This document shows positions 5,395-16,300 of a stretch of 33,669 bases of DNA, in pieces. The translations under genes and the position numbers were made by a program. Every line of letters begins with the position of its first letter. The first letter of the stretch is position 1. Under the pieces are notes generated by a model. It was not told the DNA's origin and made no database searches. It was given only the letters and a program-made list of their open reading frames with translations. This DNA comes from Nitrospira sp. (GTDB lineage Bacteria > Nitrospirota > Nitrospiria > Nitrospirales > Nitrospiraceae), in contig JABFSU010000034.1 in NCBI GenBank assembly GCA_013140455.1, positions 1 to 33,669 on the forward strand. Reading direction: 5' to 3'.

Positions 5395-6608
5395 TAGGAC
5401 TTCGCTTTCCGCCTCTGTGCCCGGATCTTCAACCGCAGCGCGTTCAACCGGATGAAACCCTCGGCATCTTTCTGGTTGTACACGTCGTCCTCTTCAAAGG
5501 TGGCAATATCCAGCCGGTAGAGAGAATTCCTCGACTTTCGACCGGCAAGCGTGCAACTGCCCTTGTAGAGCTTCACGCGGGCCGTCCCCGAGACATCTTT
5601 TTGGGCTTCGTCGATGGCCACCTGCATCATTTCCCGTTCCGGGCTGAACCAGTACCCGTTGTAGATCAGATCGGCAAACCGCGGGATCAGGCTGTCACGG
5701 AAGTGCAGGACCTCTCGATCCATCGTGAGCGATTCGAGTCCGCGATGCGCGACGTGCAGGATTGTCCCGCCCGGCGTTTCGTATACGCCGCGCGACTTCA
5801 TCCCGACATAACGATTCTCAACCAGATCGACACGGCCGACCCCATGCGCTCCGCCCAGCTTGTTGAGATGCGCCAACAGCTTGGCCGGGCTCATCTTCTT
5901 CCCGTCGACGGCGACCGGATTCCCCTGCTCATACTCGATTTCAACTTCCAGCGGCTTGTTCGGCGCTTGCTCCGGAGAGACGGTCATCTGGAAAATTTCA
6001 TCCGGCGGCGACTTCCAGGGATCTTCAAGAATGCCGCCCTCGTAGCTCACGTGAAAGAGATTCAGGTCCATGCTGTAGGGCTTGGCTTTCGTGGCCGTCA
6101 CGGGAATGCCGTGCCGGTCGGCATATTCGATGCACTCCCGCCGGGACCGCAGAGTCCACTCGCGCCACGGCGCGATAATCTTGAGGTCGGGAGCCAGCGC
6201 CGTGTAGGTCAACTCAAACCGGACCTGATCGTTCCCCTTTCCGGTCGCGCCGTGGGACACGGCCTCGGCGCCTTCCTGCAGCGCAATTTCGGCCTGTCGG
6301 CGGGCGATGAGCGGCCGGGCGATCGACGTCCCCAGCAAGTAGCAGCCTTCGTACATCGCGTTTCCGCGTAACATCGGAAACACGTAGTCCTTCACGAAGG
6401 ACTCCCGCAAATCCTCGACGTACACTTTCTTCACGCCAAGCTTCTTGGCTTTCGCCTTAATCGCCTGCAGATCTTCGCCCTGACCGAGGTCGGCGCAGAA
6501 GGCGATGATTTCCGCGTGATAGGTTTCCTGCAGCCATTTGAGGATGACCGACGTGTCGAGTCCGCCGGAATAGGCCAGCACCACTTTCTTAATCGGTTTT
6601 GGTTTCAT
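5394..6608 (-). CDS. argG: argininosuccinate synthase
   Basis: Joins citrulline and aspartate with ATP to give argininosuccinate. The 404 residues match the bacterial short form. The N-type ATP-pyrophosphatase loop AYSGGLDTS is at residues 12-20, and [13 protein letters not shown] follows in the citrulline/aspartate site. It begins 9 bases after argF and overlaps argH by one base. The order argF-argG-argH is common in bacteria and supports a single transcript. Confidence 0.98.
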
Positions 6609-12625: not shown

Positions 12626-13648
12626 CTAGGCGGCTTTGGCCGGCTGCCAACGCAGTCCGACATTCAGCAGTTCCTGGAGTAAATCTTTGTAGCTATAGTC
12701 GGCCTTCTCCGCAGAATCAGCGAAATCCTCCTCGTGTGCGATTTGAGGATTGGGATTCGCCTCAAGCACATAGACCTTCCCTTCCGCATCCATGCGCACA
12801 TCGATTCGCGCATACCCGCTGAGACCGAGCGCTCGATACACCCGTTTGGCGAGGTGCTGAATCTCCTCCGCCTTCCCGGCCGGAAGATTCTTGGCCTCTT
12901 CCGATGTGATGCCGTACTTGTCTTGATACTTCCGGCTCCACTTCACCCGCTGAGTGGCGATTCGCCTGGCATCCTCGGGAAGCTTGTCCATGATTAATTC
13001 CCACACGGGCAACACTTGAAGATGCCCGTTGCCCATGATGCCGACATAAAACTCACGCCCCTCAATGTACCGCTCGACCAGCGCCCCGGTACCGATGCTC
13101 TGGTGAATAAAGGCCACGCGCTCTTTGAGCTTCTCGTCGTCTTCAACGATCGAGGCTTGCGAGATTCCCAATGACGCCTCTTCGCTGATGGACTTCACAA
13201 TGAGCGGGAACGCCAGATCCTTGGGGCGCTTGACGCTCCGCCCCTGCGGGACCACCATGAATTCAGGATAGGGAATCCGGTGATAGGACAGCACCTTCTT
13301 GGTCAGCGCTTTGTCACGCGCCAACATGAGCCCACGGGGATTACAGCCGGTATACGGCACGTGCAGCAACTCGAGGTAGGACACGACATTCTGGTCATAC
13401 ACCGATATCCCGTCGAATTCTTCGAGCAGATTGAAGGCGATGTGCGGACGCCATCCTTCGATCGCCGTCCGGATGACCCCCAAATCGCTCTTGACTCCGA
13501 GCGGGTGCACATCATGGCCCAATTTTCTGAGCGTCGACACGACATCATATTCTGTCTTCCATCCGACCTTGCTCAGATCATGACCGTTCAGCTCATCCGG
13601 CGGCACCAAGTCTTCATGCATCAGGACGAGAATACGCAACCGCCTCAT
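12626..13648 (-). CDS. ATP-grasp ligase, D-alanine--D-alanine ligase-like
   Basis: A 340-residue ATP-grasp enzyme. The N-terminal domain has FNLLEEFDG at 72-80 and YTGCNP at 99-104, as in the D-Ala-D-Ala ligase fold. ATP-grasp features are DKALTK at 112-117, Lys152 in VKSISEEASLG, the adenine-binding VERYIEGREF near 191-200, and the Mg-binding RIDVRMD (281-287) and EANPNP (296-301). Family chemistry is activation of a carboxylate as acyl-phosphate and amide formation with an amine. The gene is not in a cell-wall cluster, and its residues are not those of a canonical Ddl, so the substrate is open. It overlaps the metallopeptidase gene by 4 bases (ATGA), suggesting a joint function. Confidence 0.85.
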   Translation of the reverse strand: MRRLRILVLMHEDLVPPDELNGHDLSKVGWKTEYDVVSTLRKLGHDVHPLGVKSDLGVIRTAIEGWRPHIAFNLLEEFDGISVYDQNVVSYLELLHVPYTGCNPRGLMLARDKALTKKVLSYHRIPYPEFMVVPQGRSVKRPKDLAFPLIVKSISEEASLGISQASIVEDDEKLKERVAFIHQSIGTGALVERYIEGREFYVGIMGNGHLQVLPVWELIMDKLPEDARRIATQRVKWSRKYQDKYGITSEEAKNLPAGKAEEIQHLAKRVYRALGLSGYARIDVRMDAEGKVYVLEANPNPQIAHEEDFADSAEKADYSYKDLLQELLNVGLRWQPAKAA

Positions 13649-14706
13649 AGGGCCACCCTATGCCGACCGCTACGCAAATAATTCATCGTGTGCACCGTCA
13701 GCAAAATGGTAAAGTCCAGCTTGGCCTGTTCTTCTGCCACCGACATGCGAAGATCCAATTGGCGACACCGTTTGATCATGTCCTCTAATACCTGGTCGAT
13801 AGTGTACTGATACTCTCCGGTCCAACTCGCGACCTTACGGCGCACCTCCCGTCGAAACCGGTTGAGAAAGGTCGCGGCGTTGGGCTTACCAGGTTGCGCC
13901 GCCCCTTCCGAAAACAGCCGCTTGAGGTCCGGGTCGTAGAGGAGGGAATGTTCCACACCATAGTGCGCACGCTTCTGCTCGTAATGCTCGCGTAAGGTCT
14001 TCTTGAGGCTGGGAAGGGGATCGACTTCTTCAGTCGTCACGACGACCGGTTTGGCCCCGGCCAACTCTTGCATCAACGCATCGACATATTTCAGTTTCTT
14101 CAGCACCGGCCACCCGCGATATCGGTCATGCCACGTGGAATCCGGCGTCAGCCACACGGCAAACGTCTCCGCGAAGTCTTCGTCCGGATGGCTTTGGGCA
14201 TACCACACATCGAGATGCCGGACAAAGCTCCGGCTGTAGGGCCTGGGACTGTAGTACTTGGGGTAGACTTGGGACGACTTCCCGAAGATCGCTTGCCGCG
14301 TGCGACGGCGACGGATCCGGTAGGCATTTTCAATTGCGTGCCCGGCCTCATGCCGCAGAATTCGCAGACACCAGTCAGGCGTCCCGCCTTCGACTTCAAG
14401 CATCTGCGCCAACTCAAGCTTGGCCAGGCGCGGATGCGCCAGATAGAACGGAATGGCAATGCCCGGCACACCGTCCGGCGTGAACCATTCATTCGACAGC
14501 CAATAGTGTGGACGGAATCGCAAGCGCCTGGATTCCAGCTCACGGTCCAACTCGGCAATCGGCCCCTCAAGAAAGCTGCCCTTGACCTCCAGATTAAGCC
14601 GGCCCATCGGCAGATCCAACAACTGCTCGTCAGACCACCCGACCCACTCCGGGTCAATCAAGTCATGTGCGGGATGTTTGGTTATCTCAAGTGCTGATCG
14701 ATACAT
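13645..14706 (-). CDS. putative zinc-binding metallopeptidase
   Basis: A 353-residue protein without a signal peptide, so probably cytoplasmic. HEAGH (119-123) is an HExxH zinc site. DEDFAETFAVWL (175-186) supplies a likely third ligand, Glu180, 57 residues later, as in gluzincin-like peptidases. Upstream, WFTPDGVPGIAIPFYLAHPRL may form the substrate strand. The C-terminal third is basic and helical. The stop overlaps the ATP-grasp start (ATGA), so the two are coupled. I have no recollection of an experimentally defined substrate. Peptidase plus ATP-grasp pairs fit peptide tagging or small-peptide turnover, but that is inference. Confidence 0.75.
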   Translation of the reverse strand: MYRSALEITKHPAHDLIDPEWVGWSDEQLLDLPMGRLNLEVKGSFLEGPIAELDRELESRRLRFRPHYWLSNEWFTPDGVPGIAIPFYLAHPRLAKLELAQMLEVEGGTPDWCLRILRHEAGHAIENAYRIRRRRTRQAIFGKSSQVYPKYYSPRPYSRSFVRHLDVWYAQSHPDEDFAETFAVWLTPDSTWHDRYRGWPVLKKLKYVDALMQELAGAKPVVVTTEEVDPLPSLKKTLREHYEQKRAHYGVEHSLLYDPDLKRLFSEGAAQPGKPNAATFLNRFRREVRRKVASWTGEYQYTIDQVLEDMIKRCRQLDLRMSVAEEQAKLDFTILLTVHTMNYLRSGRHRVAL

Positions 14707-14884: not shown

Positions 14885-14986
14885 TTACCGAAGATGAGGC
14901 AATCGTGCCGCGAAGTGAGGAATCGCGTCGCATATGTGATCGACCACCGAAATCACATAGGCCTGGGCCTGCGCCTCATTCTCTTC
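14885..14986 (-). pseudogene. displaced C-terminal tail of the phosphatase, beyond an in-frame TGA
   Basis: Directly after the phosphatase TGA (14989-14987), the same frame stays open for 33 more codons to a TAA at 14887-14885. The tail (EENEAQAQAYVISVVDHICD, then AIPHFAARLPHLR) reads like the C-terminal helix of this phosphatase family. With one residue in place of the TGA the protein would be 161 residues, the normal family size. ALPD-stop-EE suggests an original Trp (TGG to TGA). Confidence 0.7.
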
Positions 14987-15370
14987 TCAATCAGGCAGCG
15001 CCTCATGCACATCAAGGATCGGCTCGTCTCGCTCAAAGCAGAGTTGATTGAAGAGAGGAATCGACAATCCGAACAATTGTCGCACCGCTTCTTGATGGTC
15101 GCGCCCCATCGCCGCGACGCAGTCGGCCTGATCGAGCAACGATTGTGTCAGCTTGCGTTGAATGTGTCCAACAGGGTCAGCGCCATGCTCTAGGAGCCTG
15201 GCACACACGATGGGATGGATCGATTGCGGCTTTGCCTCGATCCCGGCGGAGCCGACACAATACAAACCTTGCGAACCAAGAAATTGCTTGAGCGCATACT
15301 CCGCTGTCTGGCTCCGAAAGATGTTGCCGGTGCAGATGAAGAGGATCGATTTCACGGGCTCGTCCGCCAA
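14987..15370 (-). CDS. low-molecular-weight protein-tyrosine phosphatase / ArsC-like protein, prematurely ended
   Basis: The frame encodes 127 residues. The catalytic P-loop CTGNIFRS is at residues 13-20, with nucleophile Cys13 and Arg19 (CX5R), and VGSAGIEA follows as in the LMW phosphatase fold. Family members remove phosphate from tyrosine or reduce arsenate. The usual length is about 150-160, and the frame continues past the TGA with protein-like sequence (see the adjacent tail), so this looks like a recent nonsense allele or a sequence error. The start is uncertain: a TTG at 15370 is the longest, while a GTG at 15355 gives MKSILFICTGN, a typical family start. It is divergent from ttcA. 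Confidence 0.8.
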   Translation of the reverse strand: MADEPVKSILFICTGNIFRSQTAEYALKQFLGSQGLYCVGSAGIEAKPQSIHPIVCARLLEHGADPVGHIQRKLTQSLLDQADCVAAMGRDHQEAVRQLFGLSIPLFNQLCFERDEPILDVHEALPD

Positions 15371-15427: not shown

Positions 15428-16300
15428 ATGTCATCATCATCGGCACCTACAGCGTCCGCTGCAAAGCTGGACGAAGAGACCGAAAAACTCCAGACCCGGC
15501 TCTGTCGCCTGGTCGGCCAAGCCATCGCCGACTATCGGCTGATTGAAGACGGGGACAAGATCATGGTGTGCCTGTCTGGCGGGAAGGATAGTTATGGGCT
15601 ACTCGACATCCTGCTTCTCCTGCAACAGCGTGCACCGATTCACTTTGATCTCATTGCAGTCAACTTGGACCAAAAACAACCGGGGTTTCCCGCGCACATT
15701 CTGCCGGAGTACCTGACGAGCCGGGGTATTCCATTTCACATTGAAACCCGCGACACCTACTCCATCGTCAAGCGTCTGATCCCTGAGGGCCAGACCACGT
15801 GTTCCCTCTGTTCGCGACTCAGACGCGGGCATCTCTATCGCATTGCCTCTGAGCTGGGCGCCACCAAGATCGCACTCGGCCACCACCGTGATGATATCAA
15901 TGAGACGCTATTTCTGAATCTCTTATATACGGGCAAACTCAAGGCCATGCCGCCCAAACTTCGTTCAAAAGATGGCCGACATCTTGTCATTCGCCCGCTT
16001 GCCTTTGTGAAAGAAATGGATCTGGCCCGTTATGCGAAGCTCCGGAGATTCCCAATCATCCCCTGCGATCTGTGCGGATCCCAGGAAGACCTGAAGCGGA
16101 AGGAAGTTAAGGCTTTCCTCCGTCAATGGGAGCAACGCTCACCTGGGTCATCTGACAGTATCGCGGCGGCCATCGCCAATGTCGCCCCGGCGCTTCTCAT
16201 GGATCAGCGCTTGTTCGACTTTCAAACGCTTCACACGGCACAGGACAGTACCGGCGAAGGCGACGCCTGGTTGGATGCGGAAGCACATCCACCGCAGTAG
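15428..16300 (+). CDS. ttcA: tRNA 2-thiocytidine synthetase TtcA-type
   Basis: PP-loop ATPase that thiolates cytidine 32 of certain tRNAs using an Fe-S cluster. It has 290 residues. The PP-loop SGGKDS is at 50-55, CSLC at 125-128 and CDLC at 213-216 (cluster ligands in TtcA), and the family block [16 protein letters not shown] lies between. The C-terminal part carries [12 protein letters not shown]. The first 15 residues are Ser/Ala-rich and probably disordered. The only plausible start is the ATG at 15428. It diverges from the phosphatase gene; the 57 bases between them must hold both promoters. Confidence 0.93.

Follow-up and report, generated by a model that had tools for sequence, protein, structure and literature searches.

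A likely recent nonsense mutation in a low molecular weight phosphatase-family gene of Nitrospira, at a locus apparently lost repeatedly within the genus

Analysing a 33,669-nucleotide stretch of a Nitrospira sp. genome (assembly GCA_013140455.1, contig JABFSU010000034.1, positions 1 to 33,669; hereafter the window), we identified a gene of the low molecular weight phosphotyrosine phosphatase (LMW-PTP) family that is interrupted by a single in-frame TGA at a conserved tryptophan codon. The gene has likely become a pseudogene recently, by a nonsense mutation, or the assembled strain carries a nonsense allele of it. A G to A change at the third position of the codon for the conserved Trp128 would have created the TGA and ended translation at 127 residues, leaving a truncated product that would retain the P-loop cysteine and arginine as well as Asp120, without the 24-residue C-terminal helix of the LMW-PTP fold. 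Because this helix is missing, the truncated product is probably unstable or inactive.

The initial annotation of the window, made from its letters and open reading frames, had described a 127-residue reading frame ending at the TGA, and its coordinates, residue counts and tail sequence all proved correct (Table 1). The 33 further codons that it had read past the TGA do restore a protein of 161 residues when the TGA is counted as one residue, on the minus strand, which had been left unstated. Translation would cover 127 residues from the TTG, or 122 from the in-frame GTG at codon 6; either codon may still initiate the phosphatase. No second intact copy was found in the genome, where the locus is single-copy, the sole other family match being a 31%-identical paralogue on another contig (C36) that is present in relatives too.

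Table 1. Coordinates of the interrupted phosphatase gene, its landmarks and its neighbours in the window
Feature	Position	Strand	Description and basis
Disrupted LMW-phosphatase-family gene	14885..15370	-	161 codons in a single frame, one in-frame TGA, terminal TAA
Premature TGA, codon 128	14987..14989	-	TGG (Trp) in 27/27 orthologues read by codon; DNA alignment
33-codon tail after the TGA, untranslated	14888..14986	-	Homology to orthologues
Final TAA of the phosphatase frame	14885-14887	-	Same frame as the ORF
Phosphatase ORF up to the TGA	15370 to 14987	-	127 residues
TTG at the start position	15368-15370	-	ATG in closest relatives; start actually used is inferred
In-frame GTG, codon 6, alternative possible start	15353-15355	-	Could also initiate the protein
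Phosphate-binding loop CTGNIFRS, residues 13-20	15311..15334	-	Upstream of the stop, kept; invariant columns, 34 rows
Asp120, likely general acid	15011..15013	-	Upstream of the stop, kept; invariant; role inferred from the LMW-PTP family
DNA of the lost C-terminal helix, residues 132-155	14906..14977	-	AlphaFold2 model, mean pLDDT 92.6
TtcA-like PP-loop protein, divergent neighbour	15428..16300	+	Pfam PF01171; conserved slot landmark
Peptidase_Mx-like protein, downstream neighbour	13645..14706	-	Pfam PF15887; other slot landmark

In a search of 59 relatives, the source genome matched over residues 1-161, interrupted by a single internal TGA, and 27 other genomes gave stop-free matches of nearly full length. 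Read codon by codon, all 27 orthologues carry TGG at position 128 followed by a homologous tail, in line with the initial annotation, which had held the interrupted codon to be most simply TGG and the tail to be family-like. This homology establishes the tail as real; 33 open codons in a row would, on their own, be nothing unusual. The closest relatives (G032, G065, G093, G029, G025 and G095) all have TGG at codon 128, and the DNA alignment reduces the difference to a single transition, G to A, at the third base. At the scale of the genus, 57 orthologues were counted by us among 79 Nitrospira genomes (E below 1e-40), with an internal stop in the source genome only and none in the other 56; the disrupting change is absent from the orthologues, as expected of a pseudogene. 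Outside Nitrospira, codon 128 often aligns with Trp, sometimes with Tyr or Phe, and every aligned relative extends beyond it. The comparison with Nitrospira orthologues that the initial annotation had proposed thus yielded the conserved Trp and matching tail expected of a disruption, and the outcome that it had named as contradictory, orthologues ending at the TGA position or lacking similarity to the tail, was not observed.

The closest relative, Nitrospira sp. S2bin.15 (JACOEJ010000013.1; G032), harbours an intact orthologue with 89-90% identity over 160 residues, located in the same slot beside ttcA and ending with the same tail. This orthologue differs from the window copy in having TGG at codon 128, where the latter has TGA, and an ATG start. 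As a separate observation, the Peptidase_Mx gene of this relative (G032:C54, L065 about 5417-5518, opposite window positions 14169-14530) has about 260 nt deleted and its halves fall in different frames, and it therefore appears broken.

The family assignment relies on profile, motif and predicted structure. The PF01451 profile (low molecular weight phosphotyrosine phosphatase) matched the ancestral frame with 52.8 bits over residues 9-100 (cut-off 23.2), and the P-loop pattern C-x5-R-[ST] was recovered near the N-terminus as CTGNIFRS (residues 13-20). In the protein alignment of 33 loci from named genome records, with invariant columns scored over 34 rows, C13, T14, G15, N16, F18, R19 and S20 were invariant, as was Asp120, which is mostly followed by Val or Leu and not by Pro. 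The late catalytic Asp of LMW-PTPs usually lies within a D-P-[YW] motif; by analogy with this family, Asp120 is the likely general acid. An AlphaFold2 model of the read-through protein, built from 34 sequences (mean pLDDT 92.6), presented the LMW-PTP fold with its terminal helix and was closest, among solved LMW-PTPs, to the YwlE arginine phosphatase (TM about 0.78-0.84). The final helix is modelled at residues 132-155 and is therefore lost to the stop, while the P-loop and Asp120 are spared; the encoded 127-residue protein, deprived of residues 128-161, falls short of a complete domain. An intact member of the family would be a small cysteine-based phosphatase.

The position of the P-loop and Asp120 upstream of the stop, together with the existence of shorter ArsC-type relatives (about 130 residues), could fit a genuine shortened form in which the 127-residue protein is functional. 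We consider this improbable and rejected it, since no orthologue ends at this position, the removed helix is modelled with high confidence, and the matches to solved LMW-PTP structures span about 155-160 columns of the 161-residue model. The genuine early end followed by a fossil tail, the third of three readings offered by the initial annotation, is disfavoured on the first of these grounds.

Alternatively, the full protein could be produced by decoding of the TGA, either through leaky readthrough inserting Trp or through selenocysteine incorporation. Trp is the residue usually inserted by UGA readthrough, and it is also the ancestral residue here. Against this, TGA terminates 13 of the 26 other genes of the window, and the full-length orthologues of these TGA-ending genes almost all terminate at the matching codon or at most one residue away in the alignment; the exceptions are an orthologue truncated at a contig boundary and two stop-codon differences found in single genomes, and two genes fall outside the G032 contig. 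The release factor 2 gene prfB is present above its cut-off, and the source genome gave no tRNA-Sec match at or above the gathering score, an absence that is not absolute in a genome 95.5% complete; 12 sub-threshold matches were obtained, the eight best of which sit on ordinary tRNAs. The genes of the window showed no further in-frame TGA, and the hallmarks of a code reading TGA as Trp (no use of TGA as a stop, loss of RF2, several conserved Trp positions occupied by TGA) were not found. Recoding as Trp or selenocysteine was rejected on the basis of stop usage, prfB and the tRNA-Sec search, in agreement with the doubts raised in the initial annotation about general recoding, and decoding of this TGA in any form appears highly improbable. 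Slighter still is the chance that the TGA is real but leaky, allowing small amounts of the full-length, Trp128-containing phosphatase to be made, in which case the stop would act as an expression dial in this lineage.

A wrong base in the consensus or assembly, the organism itself having TGG and an intact 161-residue protein, deserves more weight than the preceding alternatives, even if we hold it to be unlikely. The lesion is one substitution in an otherwise intact frame with a conserved tail, and a published study traces many of the internal-stop pseudogenes of bacterial assemblies to assembly error, in association with low coverage (PMC11017572). The source assembly comprises 143 contigs. 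We nevertheless rejected the idea that it is error-rich, as the window contains no further disrupted gene, and a comparison with the relative G025 over about 80 coding genes (about 26,000 codons) yielded no additional credible internal stop. The remaining apparent internal stops in these sampled genes corresponded to antisense shadow ORFs or over-long starts, the latter call being, for minor N-terminal cases, a judgement from the position of the stop.

The evolution of the gene on the branch leading to the source genome bears on both the base error and the nonsense mutation. On this branch the phosphatase shows 11 nonsynonymous changes for 13 synonymous ones, compared with 93 nonsynonymous and 301 synonymous in the other genes of the window (Fisher p=0.025); this excess weakens when start and stop changes are removed (p=0.077) and is not significant relative to the same gene in the sister lineage. 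The ratio of nonsynonymous to synonymous rates is about 0.26, thus indicating purifying selection over most of the branch, and the tail shows little extra decay after the TGA. Such a ratio, below 1, is as compatible with an intact gene bearing a miscalled base as with a very recent mutation. Conversely, the start codon has changed from ATG in near relatives to TTG, and this change, the mildly raised nonsynonymous substitution and the fact that the lesion strikes a gene repeatedly lost by the genus all speak against a base error. Since the rest of the frame still resembles a gene under purifying selection, the loss would be recent. Overall, the evidence favours a true mutation over a base error, without being conclusive; among the readings of the initial annotation, the recent nonsense allele is thus retained as the favoured one and the assembly base error as a less favoured one.

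The orthologue is absent from 22 of the 79 Nitrospira genomes (about a quarter), whereas the neighbouring ttcA is present in 74. The Peptidase_Mx gene still adjoins ttcA in several genomes devoid of the phosphatase, so that the vacated slot can be inspected. In the single-contig genome G022, this slot contains a remnant of residues 116-158 with the core gone (L083 1266-1394), scoring 25-31 bits against at most 20.8 bits for shuffles of the slot; these were mononucleotide shuffles compared with one query, the real remnant being scored against several orthologues. A weaker remnant was detected in the slot of G076 (L099 1289-1384), and a different one in that of G017 (L087 2412-2507), consisting of the P-loop stretch (about residues 1-31) with VARLPHF shortly after it. 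Judging from the parts retained, the G017 remnant appears to have arisen independently of that of G022. On a ttcA tree, the absences require about 6 changes, only two of which are forced by well-supported branches. Taken together, these patterns indicate that the gene is dispensable and has been repeatedly lost within Nitrospira. Separately, the ttcA match in genome G003 (G003:C93:25288-26100) contains one in-frame TAG.

A literature search for the gene in Nitrospira returned no relevant work. The import of the case beyond annotation is small: annotators should mark the gene as disrupted, or check the base, and not list it as a short phosphatase. The case further documents the ttcA-adjoining phosphatase as dispensable and repeatedly lost in the genus.

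With respect to known systems, the ancestral protein resembles YwlE (1zgg, 4etn, 4kk3) and Wzb/AmsI in its Pfam score above cut-off, its Cys-x5-Arg-Ser P-loop and its predicted fold (TM against YwlE). It differs from the LMW-PTP family in a Pfam match limited to residues 9-100 and in the truncation of the window copy. Common bacterial LMW-PTPs carry a second Cys in the P-loop where this subfamily has Phe (CTGN[IV]FRS), and the conserved Asp is followed here by Leu or Val (D-[LV]) rather than by Pro. From these motifs, the CTGN[IV]FRS proteins look like a distinct LMW-PTP subfamily; the form with Phe in the P-loop and no Pro after Asp120 occurs also in Latescibacterota, Verrucomicrobia and archaeal bins. 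As for the lesion, this is an ordinary disrupted gene, another instance of a familiar kind, sharing with the nonsense pseudogenes of bacteria a single in-frame stop, an otherwise intact frame and a homologous tail. Nothing sets it apart from nonsense pseudogenes in general, except that in this case the locus also holds deletion remnants in relatives.
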